Assembly (NCBI GenBank): GCA_038728085.1
Contig: JAVYUU010000005.1
Coordinates: forward strand, 1-64,000
Direction: 5' to 3'
DNA length: 64,000 nt
Origin: Candidatus Bathyarchaeia archaeon
GTDB taxonomy: Archaea; Thermoproteota; Bathyarchaeia; Bathyarchaeales; Bathycorpusculaceae
A program made the position numbers and the translations under genes. Below are positions 57,008 through 63,080 of the stretch, one piece after another. Positions within the stretch are counted from its first letter, which is position 1; every line of letters starts with the position of its first letter. The notes under the pieces were generated by a model. The model did not search any database. It had not been told where the DNA came from and saw nothing but the letters and a program-made list of their open reading frames with translations.

Positions 57008-57646
57008 TCAAATCAAACGTCTCGCGAATTCTCGGAGATCCCTCACCCTACACTGGGATGAGACGCACCTGTACACGTCCTGCCTATCAAGGAGGTAAGC
57101 GCTAATACCTACGCTTCTCGGAGACTCAAAATCGTCATGTAGACGATCACCTACGTGAACGATCTCGAATGGCGCCACACCCATAACCTCGCATACCTTT
57201 CTGTAGGTTTCAGGATTCCTCTTCAGAAGCCCGAACTCCGAGGTTGTTGAAAACACCCGGTCAAAATAGTGGATTATGGGTTGCGCCAAGATATCAACAA
57301 AAAGCCTATTCGAATTCGTAATCATAATCAGCCGGTATTTACGGCTAAGCTCCCCAAGAGCCTCTACAGCATCCGGGTAAACGCGAACATAACTCCTGTA
57401 AGAGGCTACTAAACGCTGCGGGTCACCGGGCAAATCGAAGCGCCTAAACCAATAGGAAATATCATACCATTCAACGCGATCTTCGCCAATCCGCGCATAC
57501 TCACCCAAAACAACCCTCTTAGCTTCATCAAAGCCTAAACCAGCCTTTAAAGCATAAAGCCTAGGCAAGCCCTCATTCCAAACCAAATCACTAAACGTCA
57601 TATCCACAAGTGTACCCTCAAGATCAAAGGAAACAACACGAATCAA
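57008..57646 (-). CDS. HAD-superfamily hydrolase
   Basis: 212 residues. Motif I SFDLEGTLVD (nucleophile Asp with second Asp changed to Glu, as D-x-E-G-T), motif II IMITNSN, motif III KRNPETYR and motif IV VHVGDRLHDDFESPRSVGI. A helical cap follows motif I. Phosphatase of unknown substrate. Ends the chromosome part before the tRNA-Glu 3' half that begins the integrated element. Confidence 0.88.
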   Translation of the reverse strand: MIRVVSFDLEGTLVDMTFSDLVWNEGLPRLYALKAGLGFDEAKRVVLGEYARIGEDRVEWYDISYWFRRFDLPGDPQRLVASYRSYVRVYPDAVEALGELSRKYRLIMITNSNRLFVDILAQPIIHYFDRVFSTTSEFGLLKRNPETYRKVCEVMGVAPFEIVHVGDRLHDDFESPRSVGISAYLLDRQDVYRCVSSQCRVRDLREFARRLI

Positions 57647-57696: not shown

Positions 57697-57739
57697 TGCT
57701 CCGGGCGGGATTTGAACCCGCGTCTCCGGCTCGAAAGGC
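57697..57739 (-). repeat. Left attachment repeat (tRNA-Glu 3' half)
   Basis: 43 bp identical to 61773-61815. Read on the minus strand it holds the anticodon loop CTTTCGA, the variable region, the T arm and the acceptor 3' strand of tRNA-Glu, but no 5' half follows, so it is not a working tRNA gene. Confidence 0.93.
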
Positions 57740-57744
57740 TTAAA

Positions 57745-58611
57745 ATGGCTTCTTTGGCTGAAATAGGCGGTTTTCATGGTTTTGATTGGGAAAGGTTTGA
57801 AGTTTGGCTTTTGCAGAGTCATAGGGAAGCTGTGGCTAAAAATATTGTTAGTTATGCTAGGCGTTATGCGGATTGCTTGTTCAATATGGATTTGAGTCGT
57901 GTGGCTGTTTTGAGGCATACTTTGAGGCGTCATGTTGTCGGAGCTTTAAGCAATCTAGCCAAGTTTCTAGGAGTTTACGAGGATTATAAGCGTCTGCTTA
58001 AAAGTTATGGAATCGGCTGGAATGGTAAAAGCGTTGATGACTTGATAATTCAGAGGCTTCTTAAAGTTAGGAACCCAAATGAGGTTTGGGATTGGGTTAG
58101 GCGTGTTAAAACTGAACGTCCAGAGCTTAGCGTTTTCATGGATTTCTTGGCTATAACGGGTTTAAGGTTTGATGAGGCTGTTCAAAGCTACAACTTGATT
58201 ATCCAGCTTAACAGGGAAGGAAGGCTCAGCGAATATTATAATGAGGTGAACGAGTGTCTTGAACATTTCCGGTTTAAAGACTTGTTTATAAGGCGCACTA
58301 AGAAGGCGTTTGTCAGCTTTGTTCCCAAGAAGCTTGTAATGGAAATATGCAAAGCTCAGCCCTTCCAGACTAGAGGCGTTATACAGAAAAGAGTGGAACG
58401 GAAGGGGCTGGCTGTAAGGTTCAGCGATGTAAGGGAAGCCCACAACACGGTTTTAACACGCTACCTATCTCAGCCTGAAATAGACTTTTTGGCTGGAAGG
58501 ATTAGCGCAAACGTGTTTATGGCAAACTATTTTAACCCAGCCTTAATAGGCGACTTTAAAGAGAGGGTTTTCAAGGCGATAACTGAAATTCAGAGCAAAA
58601 TAACCTCCTAA
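57745..58611 (+). CDS. SSV-type integrase, C-terminal part (int-C)
   Basis: 288 residues from the ATG at 57745 (MASLAEIGGFHGFDW). The frame is open through the attachment repeat to at least 57697 with a TTG at 57712. Tyrosine recombinase features: first arginine in FLAITGLRFDEAV, lysine in RRTKKAFVSFV, second arginine in DVREAHNTVLTRYL and the nucleophile in IDFLAGRISANVFMANYF (Tyr). The GR...Y spacing is that of archaeal SSV-type integrases. In the excised circle, the frame continues from the 61506 gene through the repeat, giving a protein of about 393 residues. A T-rich stretch after the stop (58628) may end transcription. Confidence 0.88.
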   Translation: MASLAEIGGFHGFDWERFEVWLLQSHREAVAKNIVSYARRYADCLFNMDLSRVAVLRHTLRRHVVGALSNLAKFLGVYEDYKRLLKSYGIGWNGKSVDDLIIQRLLKVRNPNEVWDWVRRVKTERPELSVFMDFLAITGLRFDEAVQSYNLIIQLNREGRLSEYYNEVNECLEHFRFKDLFIRRTKKAFVSFVPKKLVMEICKAQPFQTRGVIQKRVERKGLAVRFSDVREAHNTVLTRYLSQPEIDFLAGRISANVFMANYFNPALIGDFKERVFKAITEIQSKITS

Positions 58612-58668
58612 CTTTCCCTTTTTTGTGTTAAGAGAAAAAGAGGGGGAAGTTGGTGTAGGCGGATCCGC

Positions 58669-58911
58669 CTAGAATCCTCCGCCTCTTCCTCCGCTGAACA
58701 AGCGTAGGAGGACGACTGCGCCAACGACAAGTGGAATTATCACAAGCAGCCCGAAAACTGTCCAAACGTTGCCTATGAGAGCGTTCCATGTAGAGTTTGC
58801 TTGGGCGCTCCAGCCTGAACGGTTGACGCTGTTTATGAGTGTGCCTATGACAACCATGCCTATCATGAAGGATATGATGATGCCTATGATTGCGCCTATA
58901 ACAGCCCTCAA
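58669..58911 (-). CDS. Small two-helix membrane protein (spindle-virus capsid-like)
   Basis: 80 residues from a TTG start. Two hydrophobic helices (about residues 4-27 and 50-72) are separated by a polar loop with NSVNRSGWSAQANSTWNALI, and the C-terminus is short and basic/glycine-rich (RLFSGGRGGGF). Two helices with an N/S/T-rich loop and a small basic end is the layout of fusellovirus major capsid proteins VP1/VP3. Many unrelated small membrane proteins share it, so the virus link is a hypothesis. It converges on the integrase and has a promoter-like inverted repeat upstream (58910-58963). Confidence 0.72.
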   Translation of the reverse strand: MRAVIGAIIGIIISFMIGMVVIGTLINSVNRSGWSAQANSTWNALIGNVWTVFGLLVIIPLVVGAVVLLRLFSGGRGGGF

Positions 58912-58963
58912 AGTTTAAACCTCTCCAGAGAAATTTAGATAGCGGACTGAACGTTTAAACTTT
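58910..58963 (-). repeat. Inverted repeat with TATA-like TTTAAA cores
   Basis: AAAGTTTAAAC (58910-58920) and GTTTAAACTTT (58953-58963) are perfect inverted 11-mers, 32 bases apart. The outer copy could be the TATA box of the 58669-58911 gene, placing the start site near 58935, and the inner copy overlaps the start codon. A repressor binding both halves would block transcription and translation. Confidence 0.5.
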
Positions 58964-58970
58964 GCAGTGA

Positions 58971-59543
58971 TTACACTGGTGATGATACATACCCTTCTAA
59001 CATGCTTGAGGCTTCTCGGAGCAGGAGTGCACACGCCCGCTTAAGCCTTTTCTCGTAGAGAACACTTGCACCTTCCAAGATTTCTCTGAACAAGCCGTCA
59101 TCAGCTTCAGGCGTAGGCTTAGGCGTAGCCTTATTTTCCCTCTCCCTCATTTTCATTTTACGCAGAATCGTTGTAGCGCTGGTTTTGAAGCCCATTTCCC
59201 TAAGCCTTTCAGCAATCCGCATATAACTGAAACCCTGATCTCGCATGTCCTCGACAAGCTTGAAGTTTTCAGGAGTCCATTCAAACGGCTTGAGCGGCTT
59301 AGGCTGTTGCTGAGAAGCCGGTGGGGCTTGCGGTTCAGAAACGCTTTGGCTATTACTGTTCTTTTTGCGGACAAGAAAAACCATACGATTGTTTAGGGCT
59401 GACTGGAAAACCGAACAGTTTTCAGCCTTCAACTGCTCAGCCCATTCCGACCTGAAGGCTTGAATCGGAATAATCAAGCAGACGCCATAGGGCTCGACAA
59501 AATCTTCAGGGAAACTTTCAGCTAATTGTTCATAGAGGCTCAA
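58971..59543 (-). CDS. Element-encoded HTH protein
   Basis: 190 residues. N-terminal 60 residues form a mixed domain (FVEPYGVCLIIPIQAFRSEW), then a proline/glutamine-rich linker (PPASQQQPKPLKP). An HTH region follows (WTPENFKLVEDMRDQGFSYM, RIAERLREMGFKTSATTILR) like those of recombinase or transposase N-termini, and a helical C-terminus. A TATA box next to an inverted repeat lies 60 bases upstream (59604). Likely a DNA-binding regulator or replication factor of the element; no close family recognised. Confidence 0.66.
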   Translation of the reverse strand: MSLYEQLAESFPEDFVEPYGVCLIIPIQAFRSEWAEQLKAENCSVFQSALNNRMVFLVRKKNSNSQSVSEPQAPPASQQQPKPLKPFEWTPENFKLVEDMRDQGFSYMRIAERLREMGFKTSATTILRKMKMRERENKATPKPTPEADDGLFREILEGASVLYEKRLKRACALLLREASSMLEGYVSSPV

Positions 59544-59612
59544 GCCCGCAAGCCCTTATAATATTGAAGCAACTGAGCATTTAAAGAGTTTCCCCAGAGA
59601 CTTCATATATAC

Positions 59613-59901
59613 ACTACAAGCCAATCCACCGCATTAGAGGCTATACCATTTAAGTGTAAAAGTTTATGCTTCATTAGACATTATTTTGTAATGTCCAACA
59701 CATGAAAGCCTCACCGAAAAGAAGCCAGAAAAAAGCTCCTTTTCGGGTTCCAATTAATTAATGACATAAATATATACGCTTGTGGTTGAGGGTGTAAAGT
59801 AAACGGGTGAGTTTCGGTTTAGAGGAGCGAAACCATGAACTTCAACATCAAACTTATTTACTAACATAGGTTAGCCTTAATGCGGTGGATTGGCTTGTAG
59901 T
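59613..59901. promoter_or_regulatory. Regulatory or origin-like region with 24-bp perfect inverted repeat
   Basis: The 379-base gap 59544-59922 is AT-rich. ACTACAAGCCAATCCACCGC continues to ATTA at 59613-59636, and its exact complement is at 59878-59901 (24 of 24). An AGGCTA follows each copy with one base of difference in spacing. TATA-like boxes lie on the outer side of both copies (CATATATAC at 59604, AAATATATAC at 59902) and one in between (AAATATATAC at about 59767). Two smaller hairpins occur inside: ACATTA/TAATGT near 59679, and GTTTCG/CGAAAC around a GAGGAG loop near 59815. Suitable for an operator pair or a replication origin; not proven. Confidence 0.5.
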
Positions 59902-59922
59902 AAATATATACATAGGGCTAAG

Positions 59923-60072
59923 TTAAACCACGTATTCCCTGACTCTCTTAACACGCTCCCTATCTCTACGCAAATTCTCACTTGTCAGAAGATTCTCAAG
60001 CCTAAGCTGAATGAGAATTTCCCTGTCCACTAAATCCTGAAGGTTCCGCTTCCGCCTTTTCCTTCCGCTCAT
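59923..60072 (-). CDS. Small basic protein, 49 residues
   Basis: An ATG at 60072 opens 49 codons (starting MSGRKRRKRNLQDLVDREIL, ending VREYVV). The protein is highly charged and helical, with a KRRKR patch, and looks suitable for nucleic acid binding. No family recognised and no strong ribosome binding site, so this is tentative. The stretch from here to 60271 holds no other convincing gene. Confidence 0.4.
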   Translation of the reverse strand: MSGRKRRKRNLQDLVDREILIQLRLENLLTSENLRRDRERVKRVREYVV

Positions 60073-60271
60073 TTCCAGACAACCGCCTCTCAAGCCAACT
60101 CAATAGCCAAACGAGTTTAGAGTGAAACCAGAGCCCAATCAAGAAACCGCTAATCCAGCCTAACAACAGCCGACTTCATTCAAGCTTTACCACGCTCCAA
60201 AATTTCTTTCGCCAATTTCAAACACAGCCTTTCATATTTAGCCCGAAGTCAAAGGCTTAATGATGGATCCT

Positions 60272-60655
60272 TTATCTCGACTCATTCGAAACATCCCCAC
60301 TTAATTTTTTGCGGAAAATACGGTCATCATACTTCTCCGGGTAGATCCAATAGCGGTATCGATAGCCCTCCAAATAGAAGGGACTGCTGATAACCGAATT
60401 ATTTGCCTTCAAAATGTTAAAAGCGTGCAGCCAATTCTCCAAAATATTCTGGTTTCTGTATGCAACTTCATAATCGCCTAAAACCGCACCCTTCTCAGCC
60501 TGCCACTTTAAAATGGTGAAGGTTTCCTCTGGAATGCTGGGTTTAACACCTACAAGCCTAGCGATCTGCATTTTGAGGCGCTTAATCGCCTCTTCTTGAC
60601 TGTTCAGGTAGTCCGTGAAGTCTTTAACGAAATTCCAAAAATCTTCCATGCTCAT
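60272..60655 (-). CDS. Element protein of unknown function
   Basis: 127 residues. N-terminal coiled-coil-like helix (MSMEDFWNFVKDFTDYLNSQ, then EEAIKRLKMQIARLVGV), then a mostly helical region rich in aromatic residues (EGYRYRYWIYPEKYDDRIF). Its ATG overlaps the stop of an open frame upstream (ATGA at 60652-60655), so translation is coupled. No family recognised. Confidence 0.58.
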   Translation of the reverse strand: MSMEDFWNFVKDFTDYLNSQEEAIKRLKMQIARLVGVKPSIPEETFTILKWQAEKGAVLGDYEVAYRNQNILENWLHAFNILKANNSVISSPFYLEGYRYRYWIYPEKYDDRIFRKKLSGDVSNESR

Positions 60656-61050
60656 TTAACCCACTCCCACAAGCCATAAGCGTTAAGGAAAACTTTGCCT
60701 TCATCCTTGAAGATCTGAAACAGTTTCTCCGCCTCTTCATAACTGCATTGCTTAAGCTGGCGGATCAACTCTATCGCCCTATGGTCGTAGAAGGGCTCAG
60801 TAAGCTGTTTACGTAAGGCATCATAAACGTCTGGAATGGAGATATATTCCCCTTCACTCGGGGGTAAAATTTTTTCTGCAAGATAGTAGCGTTTTCTCCG
60901 CTTGTCTTGGTCAATGTCTTCAATGAGTAAACCGCATGATGTTAAGATGTCAAGGATTTCTTGGCATCTTTTTTGTCCTAAGGGTTTGTGGAAAATGCTG
61001 AAGTAGATTTTTTGGAAGTCGTTTCTTATGATTCCTTCATTGGGGAAAAA
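60652..61050 (-). pseudogene. Open frame without normal start, likely truncated gene
   Basis: 132 codons are open on the minus strand and end in TGA overlapping the next ATG. The inferred protein looks real: a winged-helix-like stretch (GQKRCQEILDILTSCGLLIE, then KRRKRYYLAEKILPP) and a helical end with SYEEAEKLFQIFKDEGKVFL. No ATG or GTG occurs in the frame, and the only TTG leaves 38 codons. The 5' part overlaps the opposing gene at 60988 by 63 bases. It may be truncated by a past rearrangement, use a rare start, or be frameshifted. Confidence 0.45.
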
Positions 61051-61509
61051 CTAGGGGTTTCCGAAAGAATGGCTTATCACAGAATTAAAGAAGCTGTGGA
61101 AAAGGGCGAAATATTAAAGGTAACGCTTCAAAATAGAAGAGTCCTCTATGGGCTAGCTGAATTTGGCGAACCCACCTCAAACCGTAAAGAGCTTTCTTTT
61201 GAAATTCAAAAACGCTTTTTACTGCAAAAATTATGGAATGAACTGTTTGAGATTCTTAAGGCAGACAGTTTAGGTGAAGCATATAGACAATTCAGAAAGC
61301 TAGTATTGCTAATGCCAGATGAAATCAAAGAGCAAATTCAACCTCTCGTTAAAAATTTGGACAAGCGTGTAATACGATTGTCTGATGATTACTTAGGGTT
61401 CAAATATCTTGACCAAATTATGATATTTAGGCGGGAATTCGAGGTAGCAATTGATAAGCTGGCTTCTCTTTTGCATTCTTACACTCAAAAGGTAGGTGAA
61501 AAGGCATGA
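60988..61509 (+). CDS. HTH protein cotranscribed with int-N
   Basis: 173 residues from a GTG. The HTH near the N-terminus reads SFIGEKLGVSERMAYHRIKE, then AVEKGEILKVTLQNRRVLYG, like replication-initiation or MarR-type winged helices. The remainder is helical with RFLLQKLWNELFEILKADSL and a KLASLLHSYTQKVGEKA end. Its stop overlaps the ATG of the ribbon-helix-helix gene (ATGA at 61506-61509). In the circular form it would thus precede the complete integrase gene and could regulate it. Confidence 0.65.
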   Translation: MENAEVDFLEVVSYDSFIGEKLGVSERMAYHRIKEAVEKGEILKVTLQNRRVLYGLAEFGEPTSNRKELSFEIQKRFLLQKLWNELFEILKADSLGEAYRQFRKLVLLMPDEIKEQIQPLVKNLDKRVIRLSDDYLGFKYLDQIMIFRREFEVAIDKLASLLHSYTQKVGEKA

Positions 61510-61892
61510 GTGAGTCTCCGGTTCAGTTTCTAGAAAATCACTCGAGTAAAAAACCGGAAACTACTCGAGTAACTTCTCGAAAACGAGAGGCTAGAAAAAC
61601 TGTTGGAATAACGCTTCCGCCAAGCCTATTAGAGAAGGCTAGAAAACACAAGCTAAACATTAGCAAAATCTGCGAGCAAGCTCTTCAAAGCGTTCTAGAA
61701 GCCCTTGAAACTCAAAAAACCTACAAAAACGAGAAAGGGGGAAGCGCGGAAACCCCTTCGGGGTTTTCGCAGTGCTCCGGGCGGGATTTGAACCCGCGTC
61801 TCCGGCTCGAAAGGCCGGAATACTTGACCGGGCTATACTACCGGAGCGCTGCTCTACTTTGGCATCATGCAAATATTTTCAGGTTCGGATAA
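61506..61892 (+). CDS. Integrase N-terminal part (int-N) with ribbon-helix-helix domain
   Basis: 128 residues as it stands, the last 40 being antisense to tRNA-Glu (the CSGRDLNPRLRLER stretch is the T-arm read backwards) and to flanking chromosome. Residues 29-68 form a ribbon-helix-helix (KTVGITLPPSLLEKARKHKL, NISKICEQALQSVLEAL), as in CopG/CcdA-type DNA-binding proteins. The attachment repeat is read in the same frame as in int-C. Excision would fuse these 89 codons, through the repeat, to the 57745-58611 gene. In the integrated state it is the stranded 5' end of the integrase gene. Confidence 0.78.
   Translation: MSESPVQFLENHSSKKPETTRVTSRKREARKTVGITLPPSLLEKARKHKLNISKICEQALQSVLEALETQKTYKNEKGGSAETPSGFSQCSGRDLNPRLRLERPEYLTGLYYRSAALLWHHANIFRFG
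61746..61770. repeat. 11-bp hairpin beside the right attachment site
   Basis: GCGGAAACCCC and GGGGTTTTCGC face each other across a three-base loop (TTC), three bases from the attachment repeat. One pair is G-U on the plus strand and C-A on the minus strand. It also follows the tRNA-Glu 3' end on the minus strand, so it could shape tRNA 3' processing or termination, or be a protein-binding arm for integration. Confidence 0.5.
61773..61815 (-). repeat. Right attachment repeat (within intact tRNA-Glu)
   Basis: 43 bp identical to 57697-57739. The identity ends inside the 5' side of the anticodon stem, so strand exchange must occur within the anticodon-loop to acceptor segment. Confidence 0.93.
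61773..61847 (-). tRNA. trnE: tRNA-Glu (TTC), intact, target of integration
   Basis: Minus strand. Acceptor GCTCCGG/CCGGAGC with discriminator A at 61773; anticodon stem CCGGC/GCCGG with loop CTTTCGA (anticodon TTC); T arm GCGGG/CCCGC with TTCAAAT. No CCA encoded and no intron. Its 3' half is the right attachment repeat (61773-61815). Confidence 0.96.
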
Positions 61893-61895
61893 ATT

Positions 61896-63080
61896 TTATT
61901 CTTTTAAGGCTGTTTTTAAGCATTCTTCGAGGCTTGCCAGTTTTGCTTCCGCCTTGTTTAGGGTTGGCGCGTAGTGGGCTGTTTTTGCTGAATTTGTCAT
62001 TATCGTTTTTATTCCCAGTTTATCTGTCCATGTGACTACAGCGCATGTGTCTGTTATGATTTTTGCGCCGCTTGCCTCTATCCTTTGCACGTGTTTTCTG
62101 GCTTTATCCTTTACGTGGCGGCTTGTGCAAATCCAGAGCTCCATGTCTCTCCTTACTTTTTTGTCGCCTATTTTTTCGGCTATTTCGCGGATTTCACGGA
62201 GCGAGCAGTGGGGGCAACCGATGAAGATTAGGTCTGGTTTTTGCGTTGATGTTGTGGTTAATTCCTCAATGGCTTCTTGGATGTTTCTGGCCTCTACCAC
62301 CACTTTTTCAAGCGGCTCTTGCGTAGGAGTCTTCGGTGTTGCACTGTCGTAATGAAACATGTTGACCATTCCAGAGGACGCTAATGCAGCGCCCAACTGT
62401 TTGAGTTTTTCAAGAGTTGGATTTTTTAGGCCCGTTATAAGTGGAATCTTGTCCTCCAAAACTTTGCCTAAAAATATTCCAAGGGCGCCATAGTCCACTT
62501 CTCTTTCAAGAGTTGCCCTAACTTCAACCATGACTTTGGGTTCGCGGTTTTCAGCATTGTGGATGCCGCAGTCTGGCGTCTTGCCGATTATTGCCGCTGC
62601 CAAGGCGCTGGGGCCCCCTTCACGGTTTGTCCAAGCTCCTAAAACAGAATTGGCATAAACAACGGCGGAGGATTCCGCCCAAGCAAGATGGGCGCCTTTG
62701 GTTGGCTTCTTGACATAGTATGGTGTGCAAGTATAGGACGTTCTAAAACCCATCTTCTCGAATATTTGGCAAAGCTTCAACTGAGTTTTCACAAGATTTT
62801 CCGGCAGTCTTCGAATTAAATGTTTGGGGTCCAGGCTTTGAGGGTTTAATGTGGCTTCAACCGCTACTTTCTCGCAGCTTTCCGCCAAAGCCTCCAAAAA
62901 GTCTATTGGTGCGTCGCCCAAAGTTTTGTAGGAAACTCCTGAAACGTGAGCGGATTCCACTGGAATGAGCCTCGAAGCGCCGAAAAGCTCACCCAGCTTA
63001 ACCAAAATTTTCATGCAAACTTGTTTTGCCCATCCATATTCGCCGTCATAGATGCGTTCTTCCTCCCGATTCAAATACAC
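61896..63080 (-). CDS. Aconitase-X catalytic subunit (phosphomevalonate dehydratase large subunit)
   Basis: 394 residues. DUF521/AcnX family: MYLNREEERIYDGEYGWAKQ start, LIPVESAHVSGVSYKTLG, SYTCTPYYVKKPTKGAHLAW, ESSAVVYANSVLGAWTNREG and FIGCPHCSLREIREIA with cluster cysteines. With the small subunit it dehydrates mevalonate-5-phosphate in the archaeal mevalonate pathway (cofactor a [4Fe-4S] cluster). The small-subunit gene is immediately upstream. Links functionally to the HMG-CoA synthase locus on the other side of the integrated element. Confidence 0.93.
   Translation of the reverse strand: MYLNREEERIYDGEYGWAKQVCMKILVKLGELFGASRLIPVESAHVSGVSYKTLGDAPIDFLEALAESCEKVAVEATLNPQSLDPKHLIRRLPENLVKTQLKLCQIFEKMGFRTSYTCTPYYVKKPTKGAHLAWAESSAVVYANSVLGAWTNREGGPSALAAAIIGKTPDCGIHNAENREPKVMVEVRATLEREVDYGALGIFLGKVLEDKIPLITGLKNPTLEKLKQLGAALASSGMVNMFHYDSATPKTPTQEPLEKVVVEARNIQEAIEELTTTSTQKPDLIFIGCPHCSLREIREIAEKIGDKKVRRDMELWICTSRHVKDKARKHVQRIEASGAKIITDTCAVVTWTDKLGIKTIMTNSAKTAHYAPTLNKAEAKLASLEECLKTALKE

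Follow-up and report, generated by a model that had tools for sequence, protein, structure and literature searches.

A small element at a tRNA-Glu gene of a Bathyarchaeia archaeon, probably moved by an SSV-type integrase that integration cuts in two

What kind of element occupies the tRNA-Glu gene of contig JAVYUU010000005.1, and how did it come to lie there with an integrase gene in two pieces? The window analyzed here is the stretch of 64,000 nucleotides (64 kb) at positions 1 to 64,000 of this contig, from the genome of a Candidatus Bathyarchaeia archaeon (GCA_038728085.1; G000 below), a member of a class common in sediments. We propose that the insertion is very probably a small element moved by a tyrosine integrase of the Sulfolobus spindle-shaped virus (SSV) type, also termed suicidal or type I. 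Its boundaries and the two parts of the integrase gene, int(N) and int(C), are as follows:

57697..61772: integrated element, 4076 bp as a circle, flanked by a 43-bp repeat and missing from the empty site of the same genus
57697..57739 (+): attL, a copy of the tRNA-Glu 3' half, forming the in-frame start of int(C)
57712..58611 (+): int(C), core-binding and catalytic domains (family matches, alignment, structure model)
61506..61772 (+): int(N), 89 codons, with a ribbon-helix-helix (RHH)/CcdA-like domain at residues 30-71 (about 61593-61718)
61773..61815 (+): attR, the 3' half of the intact tRNA-Glu, forming the in-frame end of int(N)
61772..61847 (-): intact tRNA-Glu(TTC) (ARAGORN; Rfam tRNA 65.7 bits)

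The repeat copies at 57697-57739 and 61773-61815 are 100% identical, do not extend on either side and are the only exact repeats of 43 bp in the window; with the intact tRNA-Glu and the 4076-bp circle, they bear out a preliminary description of the locus, which had a perfect 43-bp tRNA-Glu repeat bounding a 4.1-kb element. Int(N) abuts the intact tRNA-Glu, the tRNA having been restored after integration, and the element has a G+C content of 43%, against 48% for the window. Joining 61506-61772 to 57697-58611 yields a single stop-free frame of 393 codons, 89 of them from the right end, just as that description had it. In the circular form, the integrase gene would thus be continuous, with attP, 43 bp that repeat the 3' half of tRNA-Glu, lying inside it. 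When attP recombined with the tRNA-Glu of the chromosome, the tRNA would have been restored and the integrase gene cut in two; int(N), which encodes the RHH domain, would have come to lie next to the tRNA, and int(C), which encodes the catalytic domain, at the other end. Since the host genome has no further detected copy of the integrase core, whether whole or broken, release would be expected only through a compatible intact integrase brought by a related element and acting in trans; this agrees with the earlier suggestion that the element is locked in until an intact copy acts. The escape from suicidal integration described in the literature is excision driven by a superinfecting relative.

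An element-free site, for which the preliminary description had proposed a search, is present in the same-genus genome G047, where a flanking gene, the tRNA-Glu and the gene for a HAD-like protein are directly adjacent; both flanks of the window element align there to contiguous DNA, and overlap only in the att sequence. The flanking host genes in the window are:

57008..57646 (-): presumably a HAD-like hydrolase (identity by eye); in L128, lies next to the tRNA at the empty site
61896..63080 (-): taken by us, also by eye, to be aconitase-X-like; lies beside tRNA-Glu in most relatives with adequate flank

In G046 and G048 the tRNA-Glu likewise lies beside the flanking gene without the int(N) of the window element, the G048 contig ending soon after. 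These two genomes carry split-integrase elements elsewhere, at tRNA-Met (L064) and tRNA-Val (L071), so that the three same-genus genomes with complete elements, each from a different species, have them at different sites. In G064 and G065 (L131 and L132), the same tRNA-Glu is followed on its 3' side by a different ORF (open reading frame), which by eye we take to be recombinase-like, and by GGGACCGTCC repeats, and the tRNA-Glu site may therefore be a hotspot.

Several lines of comparison support the predicted placement of the joined integrase in the SSV-type group. The Phage_integr_3 domain (PF16795), which has been assigned to the suicidal integrase families (PMC8371274), was matched by all 15 aligned relatives (best 3e-11), the joined window protein on its own reaching 2e-4, below the curated cut-off. 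The joined protein also matches the phrog_5127 integrase (3e-11) in an alignment that spans the joint (residues 65-370). The putative catalytic residues, in joined numbering, are R246, K291, R335, H338, R357 and Y367, all except that at 338 being invariant in the alignment of relatives. A structure model of int(C) (pLDDT 84) has as its best fold matches archaeal Xer and the catalytic domain of the SSV1 integrase, the latter with a Foldseek TM score by target of 0.63-0.64, probability 1.0 and weak E-values of 0.16-0.25. Sequence similarity to the SSV1 integrase is marginal (hhalign E 0.0012, probability 19%), and the integrase profile retrieved nothing useful from PDB sequences. In the N-terminal part, the joined protein has no match to PF07935, the N-terminal integrase domain that SSV1 itself matches, and instead matches Pfam CcdA at 2.2e-6, above its cut-off. 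The named integrase relatives are nearly all from Candidatus Bathyarchaeota. The Phage_integr_3 and SSV1 catalytic-domain matches therefore point to a mode of integration that is already known, and the earlier claim that it operates here outside Sulfolobales holds. The further remark that this mode is known mainly from viruses of Sulfolobales proved too narrow, as suicidal integrases have also been described for Thermococcales, Archaeoglobales and one thaumarchaeal element (PMC8371274, PMC6563490).

Comparison with these systems shows what is shared. As in SSV1 (Fuselloviridae), the integrase gene has attP inside it, separating a short N-terminal part from the core, and the att is a tRNA 3' half, of 44 bp in SSV1 (PMC3293823), the 43 bp seen here falling within the 40-50 bp expected of this integrase type; unlike SSV1, with its PF07935 domain, the window element has an RHH/CcdA-like N-terminal domain and a host from Bathyarchaeia. 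By description, the integrases of pTN3 and pT26-2 of Thermococcales are likewise split by integration at tRNA genes (PMC8371274), as is the SSV1-like integrase of the cryptic thaumarchaeal element NitEve-E3 (PMC6563490), which is a single case in Thaumarchaeota. A 2021 review linked suicidal integration to hyperthermophiles and asked how such integrases persist (PMC8371274). We found no report of suicidal integration in Bathyarchaeia in the literature searched; subscription papers lay outside that search, so that priority is uncertain.

We then sought tRNA-linked repeats around relatives of the integrase in 91 genomes of the host family, 37 of which carry relatives of the int(C) core. Besides the window and a second element in its own genome (L009), 22 fetched loci have a tRNA-linked repeat beside an integrase ORF; the remaining relatives were left undecided, as their contigs were too short or no repeat was found. 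The frame test included 23 of the 24 tRNA-bounded elements, and in 21 of these 23 the frame of int(C) continues without a stop for 67-114 codons upstream of the tRNA copy, while the other frames mostly close within 30; the agreement in frame between int(N) and int(C) is therefore not due to chance. In L061 and L069 int(N) is short and apparently decayed. Unsplit relatives with an in-frame tRNA piece also occur (L101, L066 and L084). Split-integrase integration is thus the usual mode in the host family, which uses it routinely at many tRNAs and in both their 3' and 5' halves, rare as this mode is among archaea. Insertion into the 5' half of tRNA genes, seen in L064, L071, L073, L074, L075 and L094, leaves the coding sequence of int(N) in the former place of the tRNA promoter, and the element may supply a promoter for these targets. 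Relatives of the integrase were also encountered in metagenome-assembled genomes bearing other archaeal names, namely Njordarchaeum (L104), Thaumarchaeota (L113) and Wolframiiraptor (L124), reflecting either transfer or misbinning.

Sorted by reading, the int(N) sequences fall into three kinds: RHH, zinc (Zn)-finger-like (CxxC...H, no Pfam match) and a third type. Placed on the tree of the integrase cores, they require at least 7 changes, the minimum possible being 2, and several changes are forced by well-supported branches, as in the sister pairs L093 (RHH) and L095 (Zn), both at tRNA-Pro (support 100/100), and L066 (Zn) and L067 (RHH; support 99/97). The tree indicates that RHH and other int(N) domains are exchanged at the attachment site. 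Exchange between int(N) and int(C) has been proposed for the pT26-2 integrases (PMC8371274); in Bathyarchaeia, by comparison, the exchanged int(N) domains are of unlike kinds. The RHH-type int(N) of the window element also contains the following feature:

61746..61770: 25-bp near-palindrome GCGGAAACCCCTTCGGGGTTTTCGC, inside int(N) and 2 bp from attR (z 6.7 against shuffles)

The stretch with GCGGAAACCCCTTCGGGGTTTTCGC aligns with L021, a locus described below, over 72 bp at 94% identity. A strong palindrome (z > 3) abuts attP on the int(N) side in 6 of 9 RHH elements and 0 of 10 Zn elements (Fisher p 0.003, the threshold having been set after the values were viewed), and GCGGAAACCCCTTCGGGGTTTTCGC may be bound by the integrase or by its RHH domain.

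The second split-integrase element of G000 (L009:6152-11527, contig C2; 5332 bp) lies at an intron-bearing tRNA-Lys(CTT). Its int(N) is homologous to that of the window (40%, E 1e-15), whereas BLASTP detects no similarity between the int(C) parts. In the middle modules of the two elements, tracts at 98-100% identity alternate with stretches at 45-85%, a mosaic that points to recent recombination between them; the shared genes have nonsynonymous to synonymous rate ratios (dN/dS) of about 0.3-0.4, indicating purifying selection. Two elements in one genome, which have recently exchanged tracts and combine one kind of N-terminal domain with two unlike cores, offer natural evidence for the proposed escape from suicide by module swapping. 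The L009 core is XerA-like in NCBIfam; a separate origin of suicidal integrases by way of this core was considered and dropped, as the core also matches PF16795 (2.3e-9), and a single origin may therefore still be entertained.

What, then, does the integrase carry? The following genes bear on this question:

58672..58911 (-): 80-aa two-helix membrane protein, candidate VP1-like capsid (phrog_11172, VP1 profile match, model)
58971..59543 (-): 190-aa protein with a central helix-turn-helix (HTH), conserved in the element family (alignment)
60272..60655 (-): 127-aa protein (P127), of a family common to the same-genus tRNA-Val element L071 and, distantly, L009 and L021

The 80-aa protein matches phrog_11172, a virion structural protein (E 0.0035), as do proteins of L021 (0.0021) and L101 (0.0012); the best PDB match of its family profile is VP1 of SSV (7xdi, E 0.018), and it is modeled as a two-helix hairpin (pLDDT 81). 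In the 257 genomes of the class that were scanned, only two proteins match His1_capsid (PF25665) at E <= 5e-4, one in L101, above the cut-off, and one in L021, at it. Each belongs to an element with a window-type integrase, unsplit in L101 and split in L021. L101, an 18.3-kb contig of G045, combines an unsplit RHH integrase and an in-frame tRNA-Gly attP with a His1-type capsid ORF and homologs of the HTH and P127 families, and is likely the genome of a spindle-shaped virus, a relative in free form. Further ORFs of L101 encode a P-loop ATPase-like protein and a 1132-aa surface-like protein. L021 (2846-14691) comprises two adjacent elements, one of 8 kb at tRNA-Leu that carries a Prim-Pol and another of 3.66 kb at tRNA-Ala that carries the capsid ORF.

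The 80-aa window protein is likely, though unproven, the product of a capsid gene. Taken together, the kinship of the integrase, the capsid-like gene and the lack of a recognizable replicase suggest a miniature, replicase-less relative or satellite of the spindle-shaped viruses of Bathyarchaeia, a reading that we hold tentatively, at a little under even chances, and in which capsid function and dependence on a helper would both be expected of the element. Huangdivirus, a spindle-shaped provirus of this class, is by description comparable in its VP1/VP3-type capsid proteins and tyrosine integrase, and differs in having an ATPase and three structural proteins (PMC10848311). A number of results weigh against a viral or satellite nature. 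No replication, ATPase or packaging gene is recognized in the 4.1 kb, and the element thus lacks both the AAA+ ATPase and the genome size, about 14 kb or larger, that mark spindle-shaped viruses in the broad sense. The capsid similarity is weak at the E-values given above; in an unbiased scan with a VP1/VP3 profile the 80-aa protein ranked second of 9,919 ORFs, with E 0.31, and a PDB fold search with it gave nothing useful. Searches with the integrase found no match among phages (tblastn) or viral contigs, nor did the HTH protein among viral contigs or, by tblastn, the capsid candidate among phages.

The lack of replication, ATPase and packaging genes could also mark a decaying remnant, left when a spindle-like provirus or plasmid of larger size had its integrase split, then lost most of its genes and became immobile. 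The split integrase with no second copy in the genome fits this, as does the decayed int(N) of some relatives (L061, L069), but neither the main ORFs nor the two halves of the integrase are disrupted, the small module recurs at another tRNA (L009) with mosaic tracts at 98-100% identity and dN/dS of 0.3-0.4, and a third mini-element, the 3.66-kb one in another genus, retains integrase and capsid ORF; we regard a dead remnant as rather unlikely. It is also doubtful that the element is a cryptic plasmid with an SSV-type integrase, in which the 80-aa membrane protein would not be a capsid: the weakness of the capsid similarity, together with the Prim-Pol of L021 and plasmid-like content in larger relatives, would suit such an origin, yet VP1 is the best PDB match of the family profile, and the L101 and L021 proteins that match the same PHROG also match His1_capsid. 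A chance succession of a free RHH protein running into the tRNA and a stand-alone integrase is highly improbable, for although RHH proteins commonly occur on their own as antitoxins or regulators, the frames agree in 21 of 23 elements, the phrog_5127 alignment crosses the joint and the unsplit L101, L066 and L084 refute it. An artefact of assembly or binning is just as improbable, since the genome is fragmented (13 contigs) but the element sits inside an 81-kb contig, its flanking genes are neighbors in a same-genus genome and its kin occur in many genomes.

Returning to the satellite reading, a more specific version, which we consider unlikely as a whole, would have a group of replicase-less satellites of the spindle viruses of Bathyarchaeia, 3.7-5.3 kb in size and carrying capsid genes, each locked at a different tRNA through its own integration and released by the intact suicidal integrase of a helper, with exchange of unlike DNA-binding int(N) domains at the attachment site yielding new target specificities. 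If confirmed, capsid-linked mini-elements would be among the smallest relatives of the spindle viruses.

The 190-aa HTH family is present in 8 of the 91 genomes of the host family, and the window protein has a dN/dS of about 0.35-0.40 against the copy in L009. The remaining features of the element are:

59544..59922: non-coding region, candidate origin or operator
59923..60093 (-): 56-aa ORF, about 98-99% identical in the second element
60002-60166 (other frame): 54-aa ORF, overlapping the 56-aa ORF
60988..61509 (+): 173-aa winged-HTH-like protein just 5' of int(N), with weak HTH matches and a related ORF in L024

The non-coding region contains an inverted repeat with 32-bp arms (59605-59636 and 59878-59909) spaced 241 bp apart, and a small palindrome (59677-59695) that is conserved in L009.

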